Assembly (NCBI GenBank): GCA_002162925.1 | Contig: MABC01000053.1 | Span: 82,535-146,534, forward strand | Reading direction: 5' to 3' | DNA from: Thalassotalea sp. 42_200_T64 | Lineage (GTDB): Bacteria; Pseudomonadota; Gammaproteobacteria; Enterobacterales; Alteromonadaceae | Length of the DNA: 64,000 bases | Shown: piece by piece, positions 1,346-50,588 of the stretch | Layout: the number at the start of each line of letters is the position of its first letter | How positions within the stretch are numbered: the stretch's first letter is position 1 | Notes under the pieces: generated by a model | Told to the model about the DNA's origin: nothing | The model's database searches: none | What the model saw: the letters and a program-made list of their open reading frames with translations, nothing else | Translations under genes and position numbers: made by a program

Positions 1346-4026
1346 TTACTGTACCGTAAACTCTTTACTTCCTAATATTTGCTCACCAGCTAAAATGACT
1401 ACTTGCCAAGTGCCTCTCTGAAGAGCTTGTGGAGGCGTTAGTTTTTTATACCTATCGCAAATGCCGGGTGAAACTTTGAGTTCAAATGGAAAGCCCTCAC
1501 CATTTGGAGAAACTAAAACTAAGGTAAACCGCTGGAATCTGTCTTCGCAAAACCAAATAGTTTGTATATCAATTCTATCCGTACTATCAAGAGTGTTTTT
1601 AGGAGTAAAACCAGTGCTATCGTTTATCAATCCAACATTTACAGATTTTAAGCGGTTTATGTTAGTGCTATTAGCGGGTAGCGTGGTGAATTGATCGATT
1701 AAAAATGAATAAGAGCCTAATAGCCTGGTATTTTGTTTAATGGTGATTGTCCACTGGCCAATAGTCAAAGGCTGCTGATGAAATAGCCGCGTTAGTATCC
1801 CGGATTGGTTTTTGTCTATGGTTAAAGATTGCTTAAATTGTTGGTGTACCTTTCCGAAACTTGATTTGGGCCCTTTCCAATATACATCAAAGGTTTCATT
1901 CGGTTTGGGGTTTAACCAACGAATATTTATCGCTACCTGCGCTTGCGGGTTAAATGTGTTAGCTTCGGTAAATATTATTGGTGAGCGGTTTTCTTCAGCG
2001 GTGTGACGTTGCTCCAAATAACCTACTTTGAGCTTCGCTAAACCTTGATGATTATTATATAGCTGAGCATTTTCTTTGACTAACGGCTTTTGCTCGAATA
2101 ATGTTAAAAAGTCATTATGCTTTTGAATATACCAACTTTTAGTTAATTTTGCATAGTGCTCTGTTTGTTGCTTAAATTCATCTCTGAGCGCTAAGTTATG
2201 CTGTAAATCAGGGTCAATGTTTAAATCATACAAGTGTTTTTCTTGGTTATAGCCCTGTTCAAGGTATTTGTATTGACCATCCTTTAACCCCCAATAATGT
2301 GGCTGGGCATTGCTTTCAAAGAAATATTGAATTTTTGTTTGAAAATTTTCAGTAAGTACATTACGAGTTTTATAATCGCCAAAATTGTTATTTCCAGCAA
2401 TGCTTGCCAAAGTAGGGAGTATGTCACCATGATCTATACTTCTCTTAGAAATCACCGATTGCGTGATAGCTCCTGGCGCCGAGATCATTAAGAAGTTTTT
2501 TAAAGTGCTTTCCTTTAATAACATACGCTCTAGTGCATGATCGCCAGTAATTGCAAAAATGGTTTTCTGGTAAAGATTATTTGTTTTTAGCTGTTCTATT
2601 AAGCTACCTAGAGCATTATCTACAAAATGAAGTGCTTTATAATAAGCTTTGTCATTGACTGTTAGTTCGTCATAATCGGTTAGTAACACGCTTTGAAAAT
2701 TACCAGGCAGAGTGAACGGTTGATGTGGTGAATTACTAATAAACTGAACAAAGAATGGCTTCGAATTATCACTAGTGTTGTTGATCCATTGATTCATTCT
2801 CTTAACTACGACTCTGTCATCCCCCCCCAACTATTGAATTCTGTAATGTTATGCTGTGGTAATTTAGGGTCAAAGTAATCGATATGATCAAACTCTGCCT
2901 GTTTAAATAAACTCAACAGGTTGCGAAATTTTAAGTTCGATGCAGAAAATAACCCGGTATTATAACCTTGCTTTTTTATTTCTATTGGTAGCAACACTCC
3001 TGAAAAAGGCTGTTTAATGATTTCTGGTGTGGAAACCCGGGTTGAAATTTCGCCTCCTGTTAAAATGGAGATATTTTCTATTTCGCTTGTTGCCCTATTT
3101 AAGGTCAAATCATTAAAAATGATACTATGCTGATATAATTCATCTAAGTTTGGAGTGATATGCTTATCTAATACGCCTTTTGGGAATAAGTCAGCATTAC
3201 CAACTGATTCTAATACGATTAATACAATATTCGGTTTAACTAGTTGTTGTATTTGCCGTGTCGCCAAGGCTAATTTAGCTTCATTTTCAGGCGTTAACCT
3301 TGCTTGTCCATAACGCAGTGAATAAAGATCTTGTTCAATCGGTAAGTCAAATTCGGCTACTTTTTGTGATTGCAGGGAATGACTTAGAATGTAGCTAAAA
3401 GCATTTTGACTTCTTTTGCTTGCTAAATCGTTTAGGTTGAAGAATTGGGCAGATACGATGTGAACCACAATTAAGCAGCCGAACAACACTGGGATACCAA
3501 ACTGTACTAATTTTTTTAAGGGTTGGTTGTTCCACAATAGTGCAATTACGTTATAGCTTGTGGTCATCGGCGACATTAATGAGCAGATGAGTAATAGCAA
3601 TGTTAGGTTGAATAAGACAGTTGGGCTGATAAAGCTGATTATTGAACTATAAAAATAGCTGGTTTCATTAAGTTCACTGATGCGCCAGTAAGGTAAATGA
3701 TTGTGAAAAAATCCATATGTGGCTTGGTCGACAATGGCATAGAGACCGATTATAAAAATTAACGCAGGTATTAACCAATCGTACATATTTTTGGCTAAAG
3801 AAGAATTTTGCTTTATTGCAATTTGTTTTAAAGCAAAACAAATAACAGCAAAGACTAAGGCTACCCATATATTTTGCCATTGCAGCATTAATAAACTAAT
3901 CAACATTGAAAGGGAAAACCAAGAACTATGGCTTTCTACTTGAATAAAAAAGAGTAATAACCAAAAAACACCGGCAAATAAAAGGGTAATAAATTGGTTG
4001 AAATGTACAGTTTCGGTAATTCGCAC
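1346..4026 (-). pseudogene. LTA synthase/sulfatase-like membrane transferase, interrupted by a frameshift at a G8 tract
   Basis: ORFs 2806..4026 (5 TM + NIVLIVLESVGNADLFP) and 1346..2830 (SPHQPFTLP..., ITGDHALERM) are consecutive parts of one alkaline-phosphatase-superfamily protein. The frame breaks at C8 (+ strand 2821..2828). Confidence 0.8.
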
Positions 4027-5974: not shown

Positions 5975-6394
5975 ATGCGCTTACCAAAAATCGTTTATGA
6001 GAATATGCCGTACTTATATTTTGTTGCAAGTGCGCTTTGCTTTGTTTACGCCGAAAACATTTACCTATTTTTTTCTGCCGCCATTCTGTATTTTGCTGGC
6101 ACCTTTGTTTGGTGTATGCGCTCTTCTTATCGTCGTAAAGATACCCCCAGCCGATTTGCCAAGAGTATCTTTAATTTTCGTTTAGGTGACTCTTTATACG
6201 AGCTTATGCCTTTTCTTGAATTTGCTCTCGGCATTTGTATTATTCATTTCTTTACCATAGATATTGTGATTGCCTGCGGGTTTATCTTTTGCTTTATTGG
6301 CGTTAAAAATTTAATCATGCGCATCATTAACCGTCGCAAATATACGGCAGAGTTAGCTTTTGGCAAGAGGATGGCGGGTAAGAAAGCTGAGTAA
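5975..6394 (+). CDS. Small multi-TM protein of unknown function
   Basis: 139 aa with several hydrophobic helices; intact ORF. Confidence 0.65.
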   Translation: MRLPKIVYENMPYLYFVASALCFVYAENIYLFFSAAILYFAGTFVWCMRSSYRRKDTPSRFAKSIFNFRLGDSLYELMPFLEFALGICIIHFFTIDIVIACGFIFCFIGVKNLIMRIINRRKYTAELAFGKRMAGKKAE

Positions 6395-6479
6395 CCTGAG
6401 TTCAGGTTAAATAAGGTACGCAATTAACACGTTATTTCTTATCTACGAAACTCATCTGGCTGCAGCGCATTTCTTCAGA

Positions 6480-7103
6480 TTAGTTATTATTTACTATCTC
6501 GGGTAGGCGGTATGGCACACTAGCGATATTATCCATGATCATGTTAAATGCCGCGTCATCATCCCAATTGGCGTAACTGCGCAGGTAACTGGTGACTTTT
6601 CCCTGGCGATTCAGGATGAAGGTAGCGGGTACCGCATCAACAGGAAATATTTTGCCCAGTTGTTTGTCGGTATCGATGAACATATCTAAGTGTTTGATAT
6701 CGAGTTGCTGATAAAAACCACTAACCAACTCCAAACCTTCATCATCTATTGAAATAGGCAATAACACAAAGTCAGTGTCTTTGAATTTGTCTTTCAATCT
6801 GTCGAGCTCGGGTAATTCCCGCAAGCACGGTCCACACCAGGTAGCCCAGACATTTACTAAGATGACTTTGCCTTTATAATCGTTAAAGTTGACTTGCGCG
6901 CCGAGATTGTTGTAAAAATTAACCGGCTCGAGGTATCGCGCCGGCTTTACCTGCTTAAAACTGGCAACGGTGCCGTCACTGGGATTATCTTTTTGATGAT
7001 CAGCATGACTCAGAGCCGCAACAAAAAGGGCAGAGGTGAGAACCACAAGGTTAACAAGGCTTGGTTTGAATATATTCATTTTTACTATAATTTCAATTGT
7101 CAA
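6480..7103 (-). CDS. TlpA-like thiol-disulfide oxidoreductase
   Basis: Redoxin fold with VNVWATWCGPCLRELPELDRL active site; N-terminal signal. Confidence 0.9.
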   Translation of the reverse strand: MTIEIIVKMNIFKPSLVNLVVLTSALFVAALSHADHQKDNPSDGTVASFKQVKPARYLEPVNFYNNLGAQVNFNDYKGKVILVNVWATWCGPCLRELPELDRLKDKFKDTDFVLLPISIDDEGLELVSGFYQQLDIKHLDMFIDTDKQLGKIFPVDAVPATFILNRQGKVTSYLRSYANWDDDAAFNMIMDNIASVPYRLPEIVNNN

Positions 7104-7127
7104 AAAAGGCGAGAAAACTCGCCTTTT
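7103..7127 (-). terminator. Hairpin between P19-like and TlpA-like genes
   Basis: AAAAGGCGAG-AAAA-CTCGCCTTTT, T-run on the minus strand. Confidence 0.6.
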
Positions 7128-7163
7128 GGTAAAGTTGCTAATTAGCGGCTATTTTACGATGGC

Positions 7164-7736
7164 TTAGTAGCCGCCTTTTTTACCTATACCTAAGTAGGTC
7201 AAGTCCCACGATACCATAAAGGGTTTAAACCAGGCAGAAGGCGCCGTTTCTTTATCCATGTGTAGCATTAAATCTGGTGCCGTTACCCGGTACTTGATCG
7301 AGTACTTACCTACGCCATTTAATTTTACGTTATTACCATAATGGGGTCCGTCGTTGGCGATCATTGGCATTAATGAACCTGAGGTAAACCACTTGGTGCC
7401 TACTTTTTCGATGCGGTAATCAACCTTTAAATACGGCATCCAGGCACCTGCTTTGAAGCTGTAGGGATTATCTTCGGTGACTTCAACTCTTAACTCCAGA
7501 TGAATGTCGGCACCCTCTGGAATGGCATGGTCCATATCATCCATATTCATTGGCATTTCATGACCCATGGCAGCATGATCCATGCCTGCCATTTCAGACA
7601 TGATCACCGGCTGAATGTACATGCCTTTAAATTCCATGCCATATTTCACAAAACCTTGTTCTTGTGTTTGACCCGCAGCATTTACATTTAACGTGGTTAA
7701 CAATAAAGCAGCAAAGGTTAATAATTTTATTTTCAT
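7164..7736 (-). CDS. P19/FtrA/Tp34-family periplasmic iron (metal) binding protein with Met/His-rich insertion
   Basis: Signal peptide; P19-like conserved segments (YGMEFKGMYIQPV, DIHLELRVEVTEDN, HYGNNVKLNGVGKYSIKYRV); MSEMAGMDHAAMGHEMPMNMDDMDHA insertion. Confidence 0.8.
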   Translation of the reverse strand: MKIKLLTFAALLLTTLNVNAAGQTQEQGFVKYGMEFKGMYIQPVIMSEMAGMDHAAMGHEMPMNMDDMDHAIPEGADIHLELRVEVTEDNPYSFKAGAWMPYLKVDYRIEKVGTKWFTSGSLMPMIANDGPHYGNNVKLNGVGKYSIKYRVTAPDLMLHMDKETAPSAWFKPFMVSWDLTYLGIGKKGGY

Positions 7737-7753
7737 ATCATTCTCTAATCATT

Positions 7754-9223
7754 CTAAAGACCAAAAATAGCTGGCCACCAACAGAAACCAACAAATAAAC
7801 TTCCCAGCAGGCCGGTTATGCAAGGTACAATACGGGCTCTTGCCTTAAGTTGTTGTCGGGCCAGAATTTTCCAGCCTAACCATAAGCTCCAGATTATACT
7901 GAAACTGAACAGGGCGATCTTGATCGAGATCAGTGCCGAGTTGTCCAAACCCAAAATAGTTAGCCATTCGAATAGCTTGCCACCTAAACCAATCAGTAAT
8001 GACACCATGGCAACTGGCATATACTGGTAGGCGAGCTCTTTAAAACTTTGTTTGAAGTTATCGGCACTGCCAAACAGTTGCGCCAGGTAGGTGGTTATCG
8101 CGTTAATCGCCGACAACACCACAGTAAATACCAAGGTAACGATAGCCATAAAGCCAACAATAGAGAAAAAGTCTAACCAGTTAAACACTTCTCTGCGCTC
8201 AGGGTGAACACTCATTAACCACCAGGGACCAGATTCACCAACCCAGTACATTTCATTGCTGATAAACCATTCCCCCAGGCTTTGTCGCATCATTTCATAT
8301 TCGGGTAGGGTTAACCATAAAAAACCCCCTAACGCGGAGCCGGTGCCTAATAAGAAAAACCACACTTCGGCAGCACCTGGGTTATGAGTTTTAATTTCTT
8401 CAACTTCTTTACCCGGAGCCCTTAATTTAACCATGACACTCGATTTTGCTTCCGGGTTAACACAACGAAAACATTCGATACAATGGCGAGATTCACGCTT
8501 TTGCCGTAAATCTATCATGGTCGGGCAAAAACTGTTTTCGGCATACTTGTCGCCACCGGCTTTCGGTTTTTTAGAGGTAAACTGCACCACACCCAAGCGT
8601 GAGAACAAGCCAAGCATCAGTCCAATCGGGCACATATGCCGACACCAGGCGCGGTTTTTATTGCCCCAAATAAAGCCGACGATTATCGCCATCAGCATCA
8701 CGCCGCCAAATACTTCCGCCAGGGCCTCTGGATGGTCTCTCACGCCAACGGTTTGCCCCAAAAAGGTAATGATAATAAAACTGACAATTGGCATGCCTTC
8801 CCAGCGAATAATTGCCGGTATGCGTCTACGTAAACCACGCTTATTGGCCCATTCACTGGCGGCCCCCATCGGGCATAATAAACCACACCAGGAGCGCCCG
8901 GTGAAGATGACCGATAAAAACACTAAGGGAAACCAAAGGCCCCACATCAGGTAGTTAGAGAACACGGTAAAGTTATCCAGTGGTGTGGCTTGCTCGCCTG
9001 GGTCGGCGAGAAACAATGGCAAAAACAACAAAACTAAAAATAACCCAAACATCGCCAGATGTACCCAGCGCAGTTTGTCTTTATGGTGATGGAAAAACCA
9101 CTCAAGCCAGGTTAATCGATTATTTTGATCCACGGCTTTCGGATTGACCACCTCGACACTATTAGTAATATCTATTATCTCTATCTCTGCACTCGCAGTT
9201 GTTGAATTGTCATTTATTGCCAT
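7754..9223 (-). CDS. FtrD/NapH/NosR-like polytopic 4Fe-4S ferredoxin
   Basis: TM helices plus GRSWCGLLCPMGA, CRHMCPIG and CIECFRCVNP cysteine motifs. Confidence 0.8.
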   Translation of the reverse strand: MAINDNSTTASAEIEIIDITNSVEVVNPKAVDQNNRLTWLEWFFHHHKDKLRWVHLAMFGLFLVLLFLPLFLADPGEQATPLDNFTVFSNYLMWGLWFPLVFLSVIFTGRSWCGLLCPMGAASEWANKRGLRRRIPAIIRWEGMPIVSFIIITFLGQTVGVRDHPEALAEVFGGVMLMAIIVGFIWGNKNRAWCRHMCPIGLMLGLFSRLGVVQFTSKKPKAGGDKYAENSFCPTMIDLRQKRESRHCIECFRCVNPEAKSSVMVKLRAPGKEVEEIKTHNPGAAEVWFFLLGTGSALGGFLWLTLPEYEMMRQSLGEWFISNEMYWVGESGPWWLMSVHPERREVFNWLDFFSIVGFMAIVTLVFTVVLSAINAITTYLAQLFGSADNFKQSFKELAYQYMPVAMVSLLIGLGGKLFEWLTILGLDNSALISIKIALFSFSIIWSLWLGWKILARQQLKARARIVPCITGLLGSLFVGFCWWPAIFGL

Positions 9224-9328
9224 AGTAGCTGCTTCTGGTTATGTCGCAAATAATTACCAATGCCGGTAGTTTTAATGCTGCTATCTTAATCCATTCTTTG
9301 CCACTGTTAAGTGAAATATGGTGTTTCA

Positions 9329-9342
9329 TTGATACTGATCAA
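9329..9342. promoter_or_regulatory. Perfect FNR/ANR box TTGATACTGATCAA
   Basis: 14/14 match to TTGATNNNNATCAA, 106 bp upstream of the ferredoxin gene start, in a divergent intergenic region. Confidence 0.75.
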
Positions 9343-9458
9343 AAATAAACTTTGGCAACTGATTAGACTTGTCAGCAATAAAATATGTCATAACTGTAGC
9401 GATTTTTCGCCAGTTATTTCGAATCGAATTGAGTATAAAATAAAATAAAGTTACTGTT

Positions 9459-12083
9459 ATGAATGCCTATAAACATGAAAAGATGTTCCAGTTAATTAAA
9501 GAGCACGCCATTGCTTTTGGTGATTGTGTTAGTGTTTATGATCCGGTTTTGGATAAAGTGGTAGAAAGTACTGACTGTTTTATGGAAATCATCGATATTG
9601 ACCCGGCAAGTAACCATATCAAGGCGCAATGGCTAGCCAAAATGAAGTTGTCTGGGCAAGTTTATCATGAGGAACTTTTCCAAATAGGAGCGGATTTAAG
9701 CCCGGTTTTTAAGGAGTATGAGTTAGTGCATGTTAATGGTAGTGTTCATCATATTCGTCAAGTTAACTATCCTTATTTTGATCAGCAAGACCCTGAAAAA
9801 ACCTTAGTGTTAATCACCTTGCGCGATTGTAACCATGAGTACCGCACCAATCCTAAGCATGTTACCGAGAATTGGCGTAAGGAAAATAGCTCGCAAGTTC
9901 GTTATTTACGCAAAATACTGGCGTTAATCAGTAACGAATGTCAGGCCGACTTTGCCATGCTGGCCATTCCTAGTGCCGATAAACAACATGCTCAATCGTT
10001 AGTGGCGATTCAGGACGGAGAATTTATTGACGATCTCAATTATGCGCTTAAGGGAACTCCATGTGAAATTACGGTTAATGGTAGTATTTGTGCGCATAAA
10101 AATGATATCCAAAATTTATATCCCGAAGATAATATGTTGGTCAACATGCAGGCGGAAAGCTATATTGGCGTGCCATTTTTTGATGAAGAAGGCCTGGTTA
10201 GCGGCTATTTAGTGATCATCAAAAAAACGTCGTTGCAGGATAAATCGTATTGCAAAAAATTAATTGAAAACTACCAGGCGCAATTGAATCGCAGAATTCA
10301 GCTGTATTTTGCCGATAAGCAGCTGGCGCAAATGTGCCAGGATAAAAGTGGTTTTCTAGGATTTGATCAAGAGCAGTTTCTTCTAGGGACAACGCCGTCA
10401 TCGAAAGAGCTGGCTAGTTGGTCAAACATTTCAAAAGAGACGTTTAACAGTGTCAAAGAAGCGATTTTGATCACCGATGCCGATAATAACATCATCCATT
10501 GCAACCGGGCGTTTACCGATATCACTGGCTATTCATTAGCAGAAGTATTAGCTAAGAATCCTAGTGTTTTATCCTCAGGCCTCCATGATGCCGTATTTTA
10601 TCAGCAGATGGAAAAATCATTAGCCGAAACGGGGATTTGGGAAGGCGAAATCATCAACAAAAATAAATCGGGAAAAACCTATTCAGAATGGCTGTTTATC
10701 CGTGTTGTTTTTGATGAAAACCAGCAAGCGACGCATCATATTGCCGTGTTTAGTGATATTTCTAAGCATAAAGAAAAAGAAGAATTGTTATATTTTCAGG
10801 CAAACTATGATCCATTAACCATGTTGCCAAATCGTAGTTTACTGTTTTTTACTTTAGCCGAGTCTTTAACCAAACTGGAAGAGCAGCCCGGTAAACCGAT
10901 TGTGTTAATGCATATTGATTTAAATGGGTTAGCCAGAATCAATGAAAATTTTGATTATAATGTCGGGGATGCACTATTGGTTGAAACGGCAAGAAGGATC
11001 AAGCGCATTATTAATGACGATAGTGTTATGGTGGCAAGGATTTCAGGCGATAACTTTGTGGTGTTATTTTCCTGTGTGGAACATACCTTTGATGCCGACA
11101 ACATCGCAACACGGCTTTGCCAGGAATTGGCAAAAGCTGTGTTAATCGATCAGAAAACGGTAAAAATAACCGCAAACATAGGTATTGCGGAAACGTCAAA
11201 CTCAACATTAAACCCAGAATCCTTGTATTCGATGGCCGAACAAGCCTTACTCAATGCCAAACTTGAAGGTCTGGGACAATTCTGTGTGTTTGATGAACAA
11301 TTACGCACGGAACTGAAAAATACCTGGCAATTAGAACAAGAGTTAAATGTTGCCATCGCTGAAGATCAGTTTGTCTTACATTACCAGCCGCAAATTGATG
11401 CCAGCTCCGGTGAACTACTGGGACTGGAAGCGCTAGTGCGTTGGCAACATCCACAGCGAGGCTTGTTAGCACCATTCTATTTTATCAGCCTTGCGGAAAA
11501 AACGGATCAAATCGTTGATTTAGGTACTTTGGTACTACGTAAGGCTTGCCGACAAATTGCCTTATGGCAACAAACCTTAGAACAAACATTTACCGTGTCG
11601 GTGAATATTTCGCCGCGGCAGTTTGCGTTGGAATCCAGCGCAAACACCATGCAATCTATTATCGAGGAATCGGCCATTGATACCTCAGGCATCATTCTGG
11701 AAATCACTGAAGATGTGCTAATGGCCGATCATAGTGATCTACTCACGACGTTAGGGGCGCTAAACGAAGGCGGTATTAAATTATCACTGGACGATTTTGG
11801 CACCGGCTTTTCTTCATTGTCGTATTTACAGCAATATCCATTGAGTGAACTGAAAATTGATCGCTCCTTTGTGAAAAGCTTAGGCCATAAGCCGGAGAGT
11901 TTATCGATCGTCAAAGCCATCATTTCGATGGCCAATAGCTTAAACTTGAAAGTGGTTGCTGAAGGGGTTGAGACCGTAGAGCAGCGAGACATACTTGCCG
12001 ACTTGGGCTGCGACATATTTCAGGGCTTTTATTATGCAAAACCTTTGGCTGTGGCAGATTTAACCGAATTTATTAAACAATAA
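9459..12083 (+). CDS. GAF/PAS-GGDEF-EAL signalling protein (degenerate GGDEF, EAL present)
   Basis: PAS (ITDADNNIIHCNRAFTDITGYSLAEVL), GGDEF region with RISGDNF instead of GGDEF, EAL region (GLEALVRWQHP, LSLDDFGTGFSSL). Confidence 0.9.
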   Translation: MNAYKHEKMFQLIKEHAIAFGDCVSVYDPVLDKVVESTDCFMEIIDIDPASNHIKAQWLAKMKLSGQVYHEELFQIGADLSPVFKEYELVHVNGSVHHIRQVNYPYFDQQDPEKTLVLITLRDCNHEYRTNPKHVTENWRKENSSQVRYLRKILALISNECQADFAMLAIPSADKQHAQSLVAIQDGEFIDDLNYALKGTPCEITVNGSICAHKNDIQNLYPEDNMLVNMQAESYIGVPFFDEEGLVSGYLVIIKKTSLQDKSYCKKLIENYQAQLNRRIQLYFADKQLAQMCQDKSGFLGFDQEQFLLGTTPSSKELASWSNISKETFNSVKEAILITDADNNIIHCNRAFTDITGYSLAEVLAKNPSVLSSGLHDAVFYQQMEKSLAETGIWEGEIINKNKSGKTYSEWLFIRVVFDENQQATHHIAVFSDISKHKEKEELLYFQANYDPLTMLPNRSLLFFTLAESLTKLEEQPGKPIVLMHIDLNGLARINENFDYNVGDALLVETARRIKRIINDDSVMVARISGDNFVVLFSCVEHTFDADNIATRLCQELAKAVLIDQKTVKITANIGIAETSNSTLNPESLYSMAEQALLNAKLEGLGQFCVFDEQLRTELKNTWQLEQELNVAIAEDQFVLHYQPQIDASSGELLGLEALVRWQHPQRGLLAPFYFISLAEKTDQIVDLGTLVLRKACRQIALWQQTLEQTFTVSVNISPRQFALESSANTMQSIIEESAIDTSGIILEITEDVLMADHSDLLTTLGALNEGGIKLSLDDFGTGFSSLSYLQQYPLSELKIDRSFVKSLGHKPESLSIVKAIISMANSLNLKVVAEGVETVEQRDILADLGCDIFQGFYYAKPLAVADLTEFIKQ

Positions 12084-25062: not shown

Positions 25063-25861
25063 TTATTGTACGTTCGTGCTCTCAAAAATTTTGTCTGCTG
25101 ATGCGGCAACAAAATCATTATATAAATTACCACAACGTTTTGGGTAGCGTTTGGCAAATTCATAGAAGCAGCTTGGTATTTTTGCCACTTGATCCGAAAA
25201 CTTAACACTTACCTTATCAGCCATGGTCGAAGATTGCTCGAGTAACACGTCAGCATCGCCTTTAATTTCACCACCGGCAGCATTTAAGCTAAAACCACCA
25301 TTCTTCACCGCCTGATTAAGTTCGATAATGCAGTCGAAATCTTCTAGGTGATTAATGCTCACAGTAAAGTGATTAGCTCTGTAGCCCCATGCCGATAACC
25401 AGGCGGCATACTCGCTTTCTTTTAGCAGAGTTTGGTATTCTTCATAACTGACTTGCCAATGAGTGCCTGAGTATAAAAATGACTGACTTTCAACTTTACT
25501 AGTGTCAACAATAGCAACAATACGGTTAATTATCTGTTGAGCTGGTAGCGATAACTTTTCCACTAACAACTCGCTGATAAATACTTTTGGCAAAGTATTG
25601 TCGGGATGTTCAAAGTGCTTAGCGTACATTTTTTTTCGCTTCAAAATGATACTCTCCACACTGTTGGTAGCCAAGGCTAAGTAGATGCTTAGCGAGTTTT
25701 TCAATGCCCACTTTGTCTAAGTTAAAGGTACGGTAGGCAACATGATCATTTACAAGATCTTTGCCTGTGCTTAAAAGTTGATGAACTTTGCCGGCAGACG
25801 GTGTAACCGCTAAGTACTGCTGCCAGATGTGGTCAAATAGTGTGGTGATTTTGGCGCTCAT
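25063..25861 (-). pseudogene. DUF1338 protein (HglS/YdcJ-like) split by a frameshift at an A8 tract
   Basis: ORF 25619..25861 ends ...CGEYHFEAKKNVR*; ORF 25063..25704 continues MYAKHFEHPDN.... T8 on + strand at 25629..25636; seven As would restore EAKKMYAKHF. Confidence 0.75.
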
Positions 25862-41772: not shown

Positions 41773-41819
41773 AAATAGAGTTTAAACTCTAAATTTACTA
41801 ACTCTGAACATTTAAACGA

Positions 41820-41850
41820 AAGCCTGAATAGCAATATTCAGGCTTTTTTA
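41820..41850 (+). terminator. Terminator after groEL
   Basis: AAGCCTGAAT-AGCA-ATATTCAGGCTTTTTTA. Confidence 0.9.
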
Positions 41851-42083
41851 TTTATTATTTTTAATAACAACTTTAATTTGATTTCATACTTCTATGGCGC
41901 TCTGGGGCACATTGCGCCTTAGAGTAGTTATTCAAAAAATAATCTGGGGAACTTAAGAAACGGATAATAACCAACAGGAATACTGCAAAGTATTCCTGTT
42001 TTGCATTAAAGCGACTAATAACTCAGTTACCGACAATGCAAGTAGTCTTTTTTCGTCATAGCGAAAATTCTAAAATTAGTACA

Positions 42084-43364
42084 TTAGAGCAGGCGCATTA
42101 CCATCTCTTTGACAACTAAATATTGAACTTGCCTTAGCATCCTTAATTCACCAGGTCGCGCTGGACTAGGAGGTAGTAGTTCAACTTGCTGGTAAAGGTT
42201 ACTAAATTCATCATTAATGCTGCTAGCTATACGATGCAACTGTTTTGAGGCTAACGAGATAGGGATGCCTAATGTCTGAGAAAAAGCTAAAACATCTTCT
42301 CGTGTGACGTCACTAAATCGTTCCTTGCCGTTAATTGGTACAGATACTTTTTCATTTAAAGGATCAGTTCCTTCGGGTACGTAGATAATGGTACTTAGCA
42401 AGTCATAAAATGGTGTTAATTGAGCGAAGCCTTTCACATAAAAAAAACTGATGTTCTTTAAGTGCGCATCTCCATTACCAATAAGCAGGTTAAACAGGAC
42501 CCATTGAAATAACTTTAGTGACGTGATCGCTGGCGGTCTTACTTCTTTAAGTAGCTTTTGATAAGTTTCTACTGTTGACGCCCTATATTTAGAGCCCCTG
42601 CCATACCCCAATAATTGGCATGCATCTACAATGTGTTTTCGCTCTTGCTCGGGATAGTCTCCAATTCTATCAAATCGCTCGACAATGTAAGCAGGCTCTG
42701 GGGTGTAGATAACGTCTACATCAGGCACATCTATACCTAATTGATACGCCAATTTCATCATAAACCATTCGTTACGGGTAGTTTGCCAATAGCGATCCGG
42801 TTCGGAATGATCCGGTTTTAAAATGTGCGTCGAAGGCGTACCCTCATTACCTTCAAACAAGTCATCACCTTGTTTGATTATAAGCATCTTGTGTTGGGCG
42901 CCAGCCAACGACATTCGGCTGCCTTGACGGCTATTAAGGGGGGCTCTCGGTAAGTTTTTTATTTTATCCCATAACTGCTCGTATGGTAGAGGCGTTGCAT
43001 CGCTAGCAGGAAATTCAACCAACTCTTCTAATAACGTTAACGCGCCGGCTGATTCTATGCCTGATTCGGTAAGTAGAGCAAAAGAGTCTTCATGATCTAC
43101 ATCCGCGTCTTTGGCCAGTAATAGTCGTGCGTTTTCTTCTGGTAATAGGTTGTCGAAAAATCGCTGAACTGGGCGCCTTGTGCCAGAATCAAGATGCTCA
43201 CCTTCTTTTAATGGGATGTCTGGGCATATCGCAAACCTATTTGGCGATGCTAACCAAGCTTCGTCGTATTTGAAAGACCAAAACCCATTAGTATCTCGCA
43301 ACTGTCCCATTAACTGCTTGCCTACATAAACCTGTAGTTTTCTGGCGGCATGCATATCACTCAT
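42084..43364 (-). CDS. hipA: HipA-family serine/threonine kinase toxin
   Basis: RMSLAGAQHKMLI, STHILKPDH, NEWFMMKLAYQLGIDVPDVD, LLIGNGDAHLKNISFFY. Confidence 0.95.
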   Translation of the reverse strand: MSDMHAARKLQVYVGKQLMGQLRDTNGFWSFKYDEAWLASPNRFAICPDIPLKEGEHLDSGTRRPVQRFFDNLLPEENARLLLAKDADVDHEDSFALLTESGIESAGALTLLEELVEFPASDATPLPYEQLWDKIKNLPRAPLNSRQGSRMSLAGAQHKMLIIKQGDDLFEGNEGTPSTHILKPDHSEPDRYWQTTRNEWFMMKLAYQLGIDVPDVDVIYTPEPAYIVERFDRIGDYPEQERKHIVDACQLLGYGRGSKYRASTVETYQKLLKEVRPPAITSLKLFQWVLFNLLIGNGDAHLKNISFFYVKGFAQLTPFYDLLSTIIYVPEGTDPLNEKVSVPINGKERFSDVTREDVLAFSQTLGIPISLASKQLHRIASSINDEFSNLYQQVELLPPSPARPGELRMLRQVQYLVVKEMVMRLL

Positions 43365-43644
43365 AATTCGATACTAATTGCTGAATTTGAGAAATCAATT
43401 TTCGTTTTGCTCCATCGTTACTTTCAGGTAAGACGATATCAATTTTTACCTCTAACCCAAGTGCTTCCATTAAGGCGAATACGCGGGCAACTGACATTGA
43501 GCCAGAGCCTTTTTCAAAGCTGCCAATTGTATTGATGCTGCTGCCAGAAAATTCTCCGGCGCTTTTTTGATCTAAGTCTTGGCTTTTTCTCACTGCGGCT
43601 GCGATTTTACCCCATTGGTCGATGGACTTAATTGTGACTTGCAT
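43357..43644 (-). CDS. hipB: HipB-like HTH antitoxin
   Basis: HTH: VRKSQDLDQKSAGEFSGSSINTIGSFEKGSGSMSVARVFALMEALGLEV; overlaps hipA. Start chosen at MQVTIK because the upstream ATG (43665) lies in an operator. Confidence 0.88.
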   Translation of the reverse strand: MQVTIKSIDQWGKIAAAVRKSQDLDQKSAGEFSGSSINTIGSFEKGSGSMSVARVFALMEALGLEVKIDIVLPESNDGAKRKLISQIQQLVSNYE

Positions 43645-43660
43645 TATATCTTCCATTAAA

Positions 43661-43678
43661 TTCATAGTATTTTGTGAA
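43661..43678. promoter_or_regulatory. HipB-type operator O1
   Basis: TTCATAGTATTTTGTGAA. Confidence 0.7.
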
Positions 43679-43710
43679 TCATAGTTAAATTCTACACAAA
43701 AAACAATGCC

Positions 43711-43728
43711 CTCACAATATATTGTGAA
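43711..43728. promoter_or_regulatory. HipB-type operator O2
   Basis: CTCACAATATATTGTGAA (near-perfect palindrome). Confidence 0.75.
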
Positions 43729-43760
43729 ATAGTATCTGTTCAGGATAAAAATAGATTATA

Positions 43761-43778
43761 TTCATAGTATATTGTGAA
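43761..43778. promoter_or_regulatory. HipB-type operator O3
   Basis: TTCATAGTATATTGTGAA. Confidence 0.7.
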
Positions 43779-43978
43779 AATAATCTAATGACCGTATGTA
43801 CAATCAGCAACCTTAAATAAAGTCATTTGACAGCCTATGAATGGCACGATGAACGGCCTCACAGAAATTGTTTTTTGTTTCTTATCATAGCTAAAAAATT
43901 TGGTTATATCTCGAATAGGGAGCGACTTACTACTGAGGTATGGAGTCATGTATTGTTTGTATGTAATATACAAATTAA

Positions 43979-44044
43979 TTTAGAGAGGAAGTTGTAGCTC
44001 TTGTCACACAGCAAGGTTATAGCGCAACAGAAGCAGCTAAATAA
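43979..44044 (+). pseudogene. IS3-family OrfA N-terminal remnant
   Basis: FREEVVALVTQQGYSATEAAK* resembles the IS3 OrfA HTH start (FREEVVALVTEQGYS..EAAKSL). Confidence 0.6.
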
Positions 44045-44084
44045 TTTTTCTTATGTCTATATCGTAAAGCTCATACGTAAATTT

Positions 44085-44867
44085 TTATGAGGTTTTCGCT
44101 CTGTTTTGTGCCTTCTTTCTGAAATCTGACGGTAATACTTTAAAAAATTTTACAAATTGACGACTGAAATAGCTATGCTCTGAAAAGCCACAGTGACTGG
44201 CTACTCTAGAAATAGGTTCAGAGGTTTCAATTAACATACGGCGCGCTTGTTCAAGCCTGACTTCATTTATAAATTGTAATGGGGTTTTAGCCAGATATTT
44301 TTTAAAACGCCTTTCTAGTGCGCTTACCGATAGATGACTATGTTCTGCGAGTTGTTTGATACTGAACTCGTTGGCATAGTTGTCCCTTATATAATCCACA
44401 GGTTTTTGTAATAAGCTTAAACCGGCAGGCTCTACATTCGTTTGCTCAATATGTTGAGAAATGCCGTAAGTGCCGATGATACTCCCATCTTTACTATAGA
44501 GTGGACGTTTAGAGGTGGTAAACCAGGCCATAGAGCCACCTTTCGTTACGTTCAGCTCAAGACGACTTGATACTTCTTCTCCGACTAATACTTTTTTATC
44601 GTCAACAGCAAACTGCTTTGCAATATGCGGAGGAGAAAAATCATAGTCACCTAAGCCAACGACTTGCGGAAGTGTTTTCATGCCAACATGTTCAATAAAA
44701 CACTGATTACAGTGTAATAGCTTGCCATTAACATCTTTTATCCAAAACAAAGCACCGGGAACTAATTCATACATAGCAACAATTTGTTGTAAATCTACTT
44801 GATGTAATATTTTCAGGGACGTTGAATTGATATTCGTTATGCTCATAATGTTCTCCTTGAGGGGCAA
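44085..44867 (-). CDS. PAS-AraC transcriptional regulator
   Basis: PAS (GALFWIKDVNGKLLHCNQCFIEHVG) and AraC HTH (FSIKQLAEHSHLSVSALERRFKKYL...SRVASHCGFSEHSYFSRQFVKFF). Confidence 0.9.
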   Translation of the reverse strand: MPLKENIMSITNINSTSLKILHQVDLQQIVAMYELVPGALFWIKDVNGKLLHCNQCFIEHVGMKTLPQVVGLGDYDFSPPHIAKQFAVDDKKVLVGEEVSSRLELNVTKGGSMAWFTTSKRPLYSKDGSIIGTYGISQHIEQTNVEPAGLSLLQKPVDYIRDNYANEFSIKQLAEHSHLSVSALERRFKKYLAKTPLQFINEVRLEQARRMLIETSEPISRVASHCGFSEHSYFSRQFVKFFKVLPSDFRKKAQNRAKTS

Positions 44868-44994
44868 AAATAATTAGAGACGCTGATTTTTTCATATTGT
44901 TCACCGAAATATCTATACCAGCTTGATGCTTTACTTGTTATTATTTTCCACACTACTACCTTGTTGTAGTGAAAAGTAGCTTAAATTATAAAGT

Positions 44995-46580
44995 TTGCAA
45001 ATAAATTTCGTCGCTTATTTTGTTGTATTATTTGAATTGTGGGTATGGGTTATGTTGAAATCTTTAATCATGGTATTTCAATCTTTTATAGGGGTAAATG
45101 CTGCCGATAAGCCGACTAACATTTTGTTAGTCACGGTTGATGATATGAACTGGGATTCTGTGGGGGCTTTTGGTAATAATATTAAGGATATCACGCCTCA
45201 TATTGATCGAATAGCTAGCGAAGGGACTAAGTATAAAAGAGCCTATGTGGCAGCTTCAAACTGCGCACCTTCTCGGGTGGCTATCCAGACAGGTTTGTAT
45301 CCTCAGCAATCTGGAGCCAGAGGTTTCTTTTATATAAATGATGACAAAACGCCCACAATAGCCACCGAGCTAAAGGCTAATGGCTTTTTTACGGGCGTAA
45401 TTAATAAGTCTACAGACACGAATCCTTCACCAGATACCAATAAGTATTGGGATTTCAGATCTGGCTTTAATAAAGTCGCTAAATATTCTGCTAAGGGGTT
45501 CGGTGAAAAAAGTGCAGACTTCTTCTCTCAGGTTAAACAAAATAAGCAACCCTTCTATCTGGTAGTTAATATAGCTGATCCCCATAAACCGAATTTTAAC
45601 GATCCTAAAGCAACTAATAAAGGGGCTGATGTTCATGCTCCCAGTAGAATCATCGCAGAGAGCGAAGTAACTATTCCCTCATTTTACCTGAGCTTCAGGC
45701 AGTAAAAAGAGATATCCGTAACTACTTTAACTCGGTCAAAAGAGCCGATGACACAGTAGGAGAAGTTATGGCTGCTTTGCGCAATAGTGGTTTAGAGCAA
45801 GATACTTTGGTTATTTTTCTATCCGATCACGGTATGCCATTTCCTTTTGCCAAATCCTCTGTTTATGATAATGGCTTACGAACTCCTATGATCATGAAGT
45901 GGAAAAATTCCGTCTGGTAGTGTGAACCAAAATATCGTTTCTGTGATCGATTTAATGCCGACTATACCCGATGTTGCTGGGGTTAATTTGCCTACACAAC
46001 AAAAGTATTTTGGTAAAGCGCTACTTAAGCAAAGTAATAAAAAGCCAACAAATACTAAGCAGTACGCTTCCGGTAGTTTTGATGAAAGTGCTCACGGCTA
46101 TCCGGTTCCTATGCGAGGGGTAATATCAGCGGAATGGAATTATGTATTTAATACCTGGTCTGACGGTAAGCACGAAATCAAAAGTGCGGCAATGAATCAT
46201 CTGACGTTCGGGAAATGCTAAAAGAAGCCAACAAAAACCCAGTAATTAAGGCAAGAGTGGATCATTATAAATATCGCGCTACGGAAGAGTTATGCAACCT
46301 AATGATTGACCCTCACTGTTTGGTGAATTTAATTGATGATGCAAAATATGTTGATGTAAAGGCGCAATTACAGAATGAAATGCGTAAGCAAATGGTTAGA
46401 ACTGGGGATTATCTGTTGGAAGCTTTTGATCTGCGAGGCGATAAAAAAGCACTGCAAGTCTTTATGAATAAACAGCATCAGCAAGCGAAACAAAGAGCAA
46501 AACAGTATAAGTGGAAACGTGGCTCAAACATCGCAGGTTCAACTAGGGCAAACACTGGTTTATATCAAGTTGAGCCTTAA
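44995..46580 (+). pseudogene. S1-type sulfatase, at least three frameshifts
   Basis: NILLVTVDDMNWDSVGAFGN; sulfatase signature CAPSR; fragments 44995..45705, 45700..45920, 45922..46221 and 46215..46580 in shifting frames. Confidence 0.85.
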
Positions 46581-46767
46581 CCTTAATAGAAGAAAAAACT
46601 AAGTGCTGAAGATAAGTTTTATGGGATCAGGGCTTCAATCAATACTATAGATTCATTTGATTCAATCAATTATCTTCTGGCTCGCTCTAATCTGTCTTAA
46701 ATTGAATTCCGCTTATTACTTTTAGCCTTGAGTCGTCGCTATGTGTAGCCTACTGACAGGAACAACA

Positions 46768-49700
46768 ATGAAACACTTAATACCTTTTTTTAAAGCAATA
46801 AAATTTCAATCTTGCTTGGTGGCTTTAGCTTTATTAACTTTAACTTCTCTTGTAAATGCCGAACCAAGTAAATTAACGCAGCAAAAAATAAATCAAAAAG
46901 TCGCTGAATATAATTATCAGCTAAGCACACAAGCGATTGGTGGCCATTATCAATTTAGCAAAGACAATTTATTGGTTGAGCAAGCCAGGCAAGTTAAAAG
47001 TCTAGGGTCTAATCTATTAAAAATATGTTTAGGTAAAGGCACCGCTAAAAGCTATGGTTTTGAGAAAAAAGCCTTAAAAGCTAAGTCAGCCTTAGCAATG
47101 CTGAGATCCACGCCAGCACTTAAACACGTTTTTGATATGAACTTCAAATATTACCAAGCTTGGATACATTCATACACCGAAGGAAAATGGCGTGATGGTA
47201 TCACTAAAAAAGAAGCAGATGATTACTATAAAGAAATGTATGACTTAGCTGGGTATTTTTTAACTAAATATTCTGGTACAGGTAAAGTCTTCATGCTGGG
47301 AAATTGGGAAGGTGACTGGTTAATTCATAAAAAGATGGATAGAAATTCAACGCCGTCGACAAAGCCATTCAAGGCATGACCGATTGGCTCAATATTCGCC
47401 AAAAAGCTATTGATGATGCTAAGAAAAATGTTAAACACCAGGACGTTGAACTTTATCATTACTTAGAAGTTAATCTTGTTAATAAAGCGATGGATGGTAA
47501 GAAAAGTGTTGCACATAGCGTATTGCCAAATACCAATGTCGATCTAGTGTCTTATTCAGCCTATGAATCGATCAAAGATTCAAAAAAAACAAATATAGAT
47601 GCTATTCGTAAACCGCTTACTAAGGCCATGAATTACTTAGAAGGGCAGTTAAAACCCAAAGCTGGCATCCCATTTAAACGTAGAGTCTTTTTAGGTGAAT
47701 ATGGTTATCAAGCGAATAAAAATAAACCTGAAACTGTTAAGTCACAGTACATAAAAAGTAAGCATGTTATGCAGGTTGCTATTGAGTTAGATTTACCTTT
47801 TGCACTGATCTGGCAAATGTATAACAATGAATATAGTGATGATGGCGTATCTAAAGAAATGTCTTTAATTGATGAATCTGATGACAAGCGTTTATTATTT
47901 TATTTGCTTAAAGTGTATACACACAAAATGAGATATTTTGTTGCTCAATCGTATAAGAAAACGGGGATAGCTCCTTCTGATAAAGCATTTAAGCAACAAG
48001 CCATTAAAGTGCTGAAAAATCTTTCATACAAGCAAAGTCAAAAAAATAAAGTAAAACTAGAAAAACAAACAGCAGTAAGTCAAACCAAGGTTGTTGGTAA
48101 GTCTATTGGTACGACGGGTGCTCCCAAAGCACCTGCTAAAAAAGGAAAAAAGAACAAACCTGTTTCAGGCCCGAGTATTGATAAACCTTTTAATAATGAA
48201 CTTGGCTATAAATCAGCCAAAATTAAACCTGACTTTGACTTCACTTCAACCGCTAAATCATACAATAACGTCAATGTGTTAGTGGTGATGTCAGATCAAC
48301 ATAAAAAGTCTGCGTCAGGTGTGTATGGTCACAAAATTATTAAAACGCCAACGCTAGATGCTTTGGCTAAAGACGGTACCTTATTTACCCATGCTTATAC
48401 ACCAGCGCCGGTTTGTGCGCCAGCAAGAGCAGCAATGCAAACGGGAATATACCCCTATGCCAATGGTGCGGTTTATCATAAGGCACCAAAATTAAGTGAA
48501 AATGGTAAAGAAATAAAAGTAGGCTCAGGAGAATATCGCGAAACTGGCTATCACGAGCATATTATGAGCTTAGCACAAATGTTTAAGTCAAAAGGGTATA
48601 TCACCGCAGCACCAGGGAAAATGCATGTGCATGGTGAACTACAAACTGAGGTGGATGATAAATACCCTAAAGGTAATGACATGGGCTTTGATGAAACCTC
48701 ACTACGTTATTACAGTCACTTCCCTGGTAAGCATTATGAAGATGTTGTCGGTAGCGACACCTACAATCGCTATAAACAAACTGGCCCTTATAAAAAATTT
48801 GGTGGTTCACAAGATTTAAACGCCACCTTAAACCGTCATTGGTTAAAGTTGATGAAGACAATTTTGATATGCTGGTAGCCAATACTGCAGTAGATTTTAT
48901 TAACAGGCATGGCAAAGACAAACAAAACTTCTTTTTACATGTAGGTTTTGAAAAGCCGCATTTACCGTTAACAACATTACAAAAATATTATGACATGTAC
49001 GATGTTGATGATTTTGAATTACCTGACACCGTCAATGATTGGTATGAAAAAGGTCGTTATCCTTGGATTCAAAATTGGGTTCACAATGCAACCCCTAAAA
49101 AAGATAAGGATAAGGCGAAACGCATTATGGCTGCCTATGCAGCTTGTATTACCGAAATGGATGAAATGTTTGGTCGCTTAATTAAGGCGTTAAAACAAAA
49201 CGGTCAATATGAAAATACCATTATAGTTTACAGCACAGATCACGGTGAGCATATGTTTGAACATGGTTTGCGTGGTAAACACAATATGTATGACGCAGCG
49301 ATTATATTCCTTTTATTGTCTCTTATCCTAAAGAGTTACCTAAAGGTCAGGTAAATGATTCTTTGGTTTCTCTTATTGATATTATGCCAACATTGGCTGA
49401 ATGAGTAGGCGCTAATGTTAGTGATGAAGTACAAGGTATCTCTTTAGTTGATACCATCAAAACAGATAAAGTGATTATAGATAGAGCCGTGTTTACTGAG
49501 TATCGTCAAGGGGGGTACGAAGCATTTTCAGATGCCGACTTCCTACCATCACGTATGATGCGCAAAGGAAAATATAAGTTCGTTTATACCCATGGAATTA
49601 TTCATCAGCTCTATGATATAGAATCAGCTCCTGATGAGCTAAATAACTTAATTCTTGACCCTGCATACACCGAACTTGCTAAACAGTATGCCTTTGAAAC

Positions 49701-50013
49701 ATTAGCACAGTGGCGTTTTGAAAAGTATTATCCAATAGCGTTAAAAGTTACGGGTAATAAACTTAGCTGGTCTACAATATCTCAGGCTAGAGGGTACAAC
49801 CTGTTTTATTCACCGACAAACAATTCTGCTAAAGCGTCACTTTTACAACAAGACATTAAGCAAACAACATTTAAAGTAGATAAAAAAGGCTATTACTGGG
49901 TGTTTGCTGACTTTAATTTAACTCGAAACACTAAACGCCTCGGTAATACACCCGTTTGGCTGGAAAACCATACTTATAGGTTGCCTATCTCAGATTATGT
50001 TTTGGTAAAATAG
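46768..50013 (+). pseudogene. Bimodular glycoside hydrolase-like + S1 sulfatase protein, three frameshifts and one in-frame TGA
   Basis: GH-like module (FMLGNWEGDW..., FLGEYGYQ...FALIWQMYNNE), Lys/Pro-rich linker, then sulfatase (VLVVMSDQHKKSASGVYGH, CAPARAAMQTGIYP, TDHGEHMFEHGL). Breaks near 47350, 48845 and 49303; TGA at 49402..49404. Confidence 0.8.
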
Positions 50014-50161
50014 TAGTAGTTCGATTTCTAGGAAATCGACCGTTTTTGATAAGGATATTATGGTTTGGTTGTCTAAGTCACTTTTCTCAAAATACAGCCG
50101 GTTAAACGATTTATCTTTTTATCTCGCTATATCTAAACAAAAAAATATTTAAGGAAATTCA

Positions 50162-50362
50162 ATGAGACTTTCGATAATTTTACTTACCTTACTTAGTTTT
50201 ATTTCTCATAGTGATGAATTTCAGTTATCAATTAAAGAGCACACCAGACTATCTAATAACAGTGCGATAAATGCTAAGTATTGGTTGGCAACCAATCAAG
50301 TATCTTCAGAATCATCTGCGCCTTTACTTATCTATTTGCATGGCCGCGGAGGAGTAGACTAA
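50162..50362 (+). pseudogene. Truncated secreted alpha/beta hydrolase
   Basis: Signal peptide, then SAPLLIYLHGRGGVD*; stops just after an HGxGG-type oxyanion motif. Confidence 0.6.
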
Positions 50363-50588
50363 AGCGTTAATTATGGCGCTGCTTTGTTGCTCGTTTAAGA
50401 AACACTAAACGTCGCAATAAATCGCCTTGTACTAAACGCTTTATCCTGCGCAAAAATATTGCTCTGAAATCTACATAAAACTCGCTTCGGCGAGTTTTTT
50501 GTTTATTTCTAAATACATTCTATATTGAAAGTTAGTAGCGAATTCGCTACTGTGCACTAATTGTCACCATAAGGTAAAATTTTCTCCC

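Follow-up and report, generated by a model that had tools for sequence, protein, structure and literature searches.

A decayed gene joining a GH-A-like barrel to an S1 sulfatase in Thalassotalea sp. 42_200_T64

The stretch of DNA analysed here, called the window, comprises 64,000 nucleotides of contig MABC01000053.1 from Thalassotalea sp. 42_200_T64. Read frame by frame, positions 46768-50013 represent one former gene, now in four pieces, in which a secreted barrel module is followed by a K/P-rich linker and an S1 sulfatase. Three frameshifts and one in-frame TGA interrupt it. The gene and its surroundings are organized as follows.

41773-50588 (about), no strand: variable segment of about 8.7 kb, from groEL (supported by Pfam) to what we take from homology to be the DUF4202/nos genes, holding the fusion gene, the second sulfatase and the regulator (comparison with genomes G240 and G197)
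44085..44867, minus strand: intact regulator of PAS and AraC type, divergent from the sulfatases (PF12833, PF00165, PF08448)
44995..46580, plus strand: second broken S1 sulfatase with three frame changes, just upstream of the fusion gene (PF00884, E 8e-22 for the first piece; 38-41% identity along its length to a flavobacterial-locus sulfatase)
46768..47350, plus strand: signal peptide and barrel N-half with GNWEGDW, holding the candidate acid/base Glu (48% identity to residues 13-195 of the Sphingomonas protein of locus L004)
47343..47364, plus strand: frame break in the barrel module (homology switches frame between these positions)
47351..48041, plus strand: barrel C-half with FLGEYGYQ, holding the candidate nucleophile Glu (58% identity to residues 198-423 of the L004 protein)
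48042..48251, plus strand: K/P-rich linker of about 70 codons, free of stops and lacking a second signal peptide (barrel homology stops at 48041 and sulfatase homology starts at about 48252)
48252..48821, plus strand: N-part of the S1 sulfatase with the CAPAR (formylglycine) motif (PF00884, E 3e-19; 58-61% identity to 607-aa flavobacterial sulfatases)
48821..48833, plus strand: frame break in the sulfatase (homology alignment)
48833..49303, plus strand: middle part of the S1 sulfatase with the DHGEH metal-site motif (PF00884, E 9e-22; 62-66% identity)
49303..49306, plus strand: frame break in the sulfatase (homology alignment)
49306..50013, plus strand: C-part of the S1 sulfatase and C-terminal tail (42-45% identity over 231-233 residues to the end of stand-alone sulfatases)
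49402..49404, plus strand: in-frame TGA stop (translation and alignment)

A sequence-only reading had described this gene as a disrupted fusion of a GH-like module and an S1 sulfatase, and the elements that it named were all located between 46768 and 50013: a signal-peptide-like N-terminus following the ATG at 46768, the GNWEGDW and FLGEYGYQ motifs, the K/P-rich linker, the CAPAR motif and a C-terminal tail. The fusion itself was borne out, as the junction lies in one open frame with homology on both sides; an uninterrupted frame of about 500 codons (47376-48878) carries the barrel C-half, the linker and the sulfatase N-half. Homology was far beyond chance for both modules. The Sphingomonas protein (431 aa) spans both barrel halves at 48% and 58% identity (E 3e-122), and the two halves fit profile A1, which includes the window pieces among its own rows, with E-values of 1.5e-105 and 1.8e-76. 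The three sulfatase pieces align to a 607-aa flavobacterial sulfatase at 61%, 63% and 45% identity (E about 0), and the alignment runs until five residues before its end. The reading was mistaken about an Fn3-like tail: the stand-alone 607-aa sulfatases end in a sequence that aligns with this tail, no Fn3 model matched it, and we rejected a separate Fn3 module in favour of the sulfatase's own C-terminus.

The Pfam sulfatase model, which has a cut-off of 25 bits, scored 69.8 and 78.1 bits on two of the sulfatase pieces, and the closest solved sulfatase, 4upi, was distant (168 bits). In translation, the activation motif C-x-[AP]-x-R is present as APVCAPAR and the D-H metal motif as STDHGEH. Active-site motifs are preserved in both modules, and the sulfatase module is a pseudogene, with two frame breaks and one TGA inside a reading frame that is no longer intact. 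The stand-alone 607-aa S1 sulfatases of Hyunsoonleella, Aestuariivivens and Yeosuana resemble the fused module in their roughly 60% identity, their CAPAR motif and their C-terminal tail. However, they are encoded by separate genes adjoining SusD and carry signal peptides of their own (read by eye), where the window sulfatase has the linker instead.

The barrel module, of which the window pieces and the intact homologues were both compared, matched no model in Pfam or NCBIfam and no PDB sequence, even by profile search; the family thus has no name in these libraries, as the earlier statement that the GH module was not recognised would have it. We also found no literature on it. The AlphaFold2 model of the L004 homologue, computed with the window pieces in the alignment (pLDDT 82.7, pTM 0.82), shows eight alternating strands arranged as a (beta/alpha)8 barrel. 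In this model, the Glu of GNWEGDW (E179) comes after strand 4 and that of GEYG (E309) after strand 7, and the prediction agrees with the earlier suggestion of a TIM-barrel-like module with two Glu motifs. The structure search proposed at that time returned clan GH-A enzymes (GH164, PslG, GH5, GH1) as fold matches, with probability 1.00 and TM about 0.5; across these PDB matches, mostly at 8-14% identity, TM was about 0.4-0.55 and rmsd 5-10 Å, so that the likeness is topological only. The fold is therefore predicted to be GH-A-like. The model shares with GH164, the GH39-like PslG, GH5 and GH1 the (beta/alpha)8 barrel and the placing of a candidate Glu after strands 4 and 7, but the identity is about 10-13%, no profile matched the window barrel, and the usual strand-4 motif of the clan is NE whereas the window barrel has NWE. 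Both E179 and E309 are kept in close homologues, and every wider relative compared retains the Glu of GEYG/GEFA. The Glu of NWE is replaced by Gln in one distant haloarchaeal relative (Halobaculum), which makes the acid/base role of this residue uncertain for the superfamily at large.

It is possible, though we would not put it as high as an even chance, that the barrel belongs to a CAZy family which exists already but is too recent or too small for the libraries used, in which case only the fusion would be new. The comparison was made with Pfam, NCBIfam and PDB, and CAZy adds families often, GH195 being a recent one (PMC13063451). This explanation has to contend with the failure of even profile searches to find a match in Pfam, NCBIfam or PDB sequences, and with the annotation of distant plasmid-borne relatives as "hypothetical protein".

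Relatives of the barrel are few. A single pattern-based scan across 84,980 species genomes found 14 related loci, in Sphingomonas, Flavobacteriaceae, Chitinophagaceae and Pedobacter, and every one of them has a stand-alone barrel gene of about 400-456 aa. Of 369 class genomes sampled, one has the barrel, namely the source genome; it is present in four of 301 genomes of the family of Hyunsoonleella and in one of 346 genomes of the phylum Bacteroidota (the centre genome itself). Because this wider sampling of 369 class and 346 Bacteroidota genomes gave no members beyond those known, we conclude that the barrel family is rare. It was not found in 16 other genomes of the source genus, and the second sulfatase had no good DNA match among them. 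In the tree of the C-half, the window pairs with Sphingomonas, with support of 91/87, below the strict threshold. In a different genus of the GTDB family to which the source genome belongs, a barrel of the same family (38% identity) has another kind of carbohydrate-active fusion partner, in a 1093-aa protein organized as CBM2, barrel, CBM2 and GDSL (G126, L018 15896-19177); unlike in the window, its partners are a GDSL esterase-type domain and CBM2, with no sulfatase.

The search for intact homologues suggested earlier thus yielded 14 loci, with the sulfatase separate wherever it is present. In 13 of the 14, an S1 sulfatase gene shares the 11-17 kb stretch with the barrel gene, several of these sulfatases being confirmed by Pfam and the others by the C-x-P-x-R motif only; the exception is Sphingomonas, the closest relative in the tree, which has no sulfatase like the window's. 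In five flavobacteria, a separate 607-aa sulfatase, 60-63% identical to that of the window, directly follows SusD. The flanks in Hyunsoonleella hold an HTCS regulator, an SSF symporter, GH130, mannose-6-phosphate isomerase, an FGE and more sulfatases, one of which is the relative of the window's second broken sulfatase, together with a 1070-aa ORF assigned to SusC by size alone. With SusD, the HTCS regulator, sulfatases, FGE and GH130, the Hyunsoonleella locus (L005/L078/L079) shows the pattern of a PUL for sulfated glycans. GH2 enzymes that carry Ig domains of mannosidase type are present in the loci of Chitinophagaceae and Sphingomonas. Because GH130, mannose-6-phosphate isomerase and GH2 are among the neighbours, these loci suggest a sulfated, mannose-containing glycan as the substrate, which is a guess from the neighbourhood.

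In the source genome, the fusion gene is part of the variable segment, which also holds HipAB, the AraC-type regulator, likely the local one, and the second broken sulfatase, probably part of the same lost function. The segment is absent from G240, in which groEL adjoins the DUF4202/nos block (again as we take these genes to be), and different genes are inserted at this place in G197. All three formylglycine-motif sulfatases of the source genome are broken, two in the window and one on contig C66 (L068 1456-2725, S1-type, with the motif ACTTTRAS), while an FGE-type maturase gene on contig C48 is an open frame. Some minor features of the window may be recorded here. A membrane gene of the sulfatase superfamily (LtaS-like) at 1346-4026 is broken into two overlapping frames of 406 and 494 aa. 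For an alpha/beta-hydrolase remnant at 50162-50359, considered as a possible part of the island, Pfam gave no match, and its likeness to esterases of the flavobacterial locus was not convincing. An intergenic repeat of about 80 bp (50376-50456) has two tandem copies at the corresponding site of G240 (L059 9737-9870 and 9885-9965).

The fusion is real, because the junction lies in one uninterrupted frame of 500 codons and the sulfatase's own signal peptide is gone; on the same grounds, an assembly artefact was rejected. The sequence-only reading had tied separate halves in homologues to such an artefact. The halves are indeed separate in intact homologues, but the artefact does not follow, given the open junction frame and the precedent of PbSulf1-GH195, split into OpSulf1 and OpGH195 in a relative. 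The fused version was absent from all 14 related loci in public genomes, and no intact fusion of GH, linker and sulfatase was found on plasmids (no match covering 80% of the query). The fusion has been seen once only, as a dead copy, and the fused enzyme no longer works in the source genome.

We had to consider whether the frame breaks reflect mistakes in sequencing or assembly, with an intact, working fused enzyme in the organism. The assembly consists of 94 contigs and is 87% complete, and the active-site motifs of both modules are kept, as would suit such errors. However, the breaks cluster, four in the fusion gene and three in the neighbouring sulfatase, and on contig C66 the third S1 sulfatase is disrupted too. 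Of the core genes of the window, about 36 syntenic ones match two relatives in one frame with one exception, at 25066-25861, where the frame changes relative to a close relative (L073 13162). Because these genes show only one break, the lesions represent local decay of the function encoded here and a general sequencing error is unlikely; we regard a working enzyme behind misread frames as very improbable. It is also conceivable, but in our opinion unlikely, that the genes were once separate neighbours and that an in-frame deletion in decaying DNA joined them by chance, so that a bifunctional enzyme never existed. Such a history would fit a gene that is dead and a fusion seen in one case only, and also the 14 related loci, in all of which the halves lie apart or a sulfatase of the window type is missing. 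Yet about 70 open codons, basic, rich in P and K and linker-like, lie between the homologous parts, where a random join would need stop-free filler, and it is exactly the sulfatase signal peptide that is missing. Moreover, the barrel and sulfatase genes of the flavobacteria are not immediate neighbours, because SusC and SusD lie between them, and a fused and a split form have been published for another pair of GH and sulfatase (PMC13063451).

We therefore prefer, as a reading that is rather probable though far from secure, a decayed island for sulfated glycans, acquired horizontally, whose central gene encoded a secreted bifunctional enzyme of barrel, linker and sulfatase. The island would have been acquired for the use of a sulfated, probably mannose-containing polysaccharide, of which only a decayed remnant is left. 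Its central gene would have produced a single secreted protein, in which the flexible K/P-rich linker tethered a putative retaining GH-like barrel of clan GH-A type, at the N-terminal end, to a formylglycine sulfatase of type S1. The sulfatase might strip the sulfate before the tethered barrel cleaves the neighbouring glycosidic bond, or the two might act in reverse order on the same chain; this order is modelled by analogy on PbSulf1-GH195 and on the GH78|S1_25 protein P36.

Enzymes fusing a GH and a sulfatase are already known, as the sequence-only reading had noted for ulvan, and the fusion in the window is a new variant of them, though dead. In P36 of Formosa agariphila, GH78 and S1_25 perform consecutive steps in one protein (PMC8511951); a GH is joined to an S1 sulfatase as in the window, but GH78 is an alpha-rhamnosidase acting on ulvan and is unrelated to the window barrel. 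PbSulf1-GH195 of Polaribacter combines an S1_51 sulfatase, which must act first, with GH195, and its domains occur as the separate genes OpSulf1 and OpGH195 in Ochrovirga pacifica (PMC13063451). It is similar to the proposed enzyme in being a secreted, bimodular protein of a sulfatase and a GH family new at its time, in being split in a relative and in its mannose-based sulfated substrate, which for the window is a presumed one. In contrast, its sulfatase precedes the GH, its secretion is by T9SS, and it is active and encoded by an intact gene. GH195 is a relative of GH99, but the window barrel is GH-A-like in prediction and, at E up to 0.5-1, no GH99-type Pfam model matched it, GH195 being judged only through the GH99 profile.

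The live interest of the locus is in the GH-A-like barrel family, unclassified in Pfam, NCBIfam and PDB sequences. About half of the susC/D loci of Bacteroidetes have no recognised CAZyme, and 11% of these CAZyme-less loci encode predicted peptidases and sulfatases, a finding interpreted as pointing to CAZyme families yet to be discovered (PMC6499787). The flavobacterial loci offer concrete sites for seeking such enzymes, because three consecutive members of the barrel superfamily adjoin SusC/D and several sulfatases there. In L005, two diverged members (6147-7433 and 8673-11135, the latter encoding 820 aa with a T9SS tail) adjoin the close homologue, making three in a row. We tentatively suggest, with less than even confidence, that the barrel founds a new family of clan GH-A, accompanied by two diverged paralogues within these flavobacterial loci, that it attacks a sulfated mannose-containing glycan, that the window holds its version fused to a sulfatase, and that these loci answer part of the puzzle of PULs without known CAZymes. 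The fusion, even though dead, tells experimenters which sulfatase pairs with which cutting enzyme. Farther away, a distant haloarchaeal relative of the barrel, annotated as a hypothetical protein, adjoins a SUMF1-family gene on a plasmid of Halomontanus rarus (L067 7977-9092), and another plasmid of this species (NZ_CP119798.1) matches the sulfatase query at 21 places.
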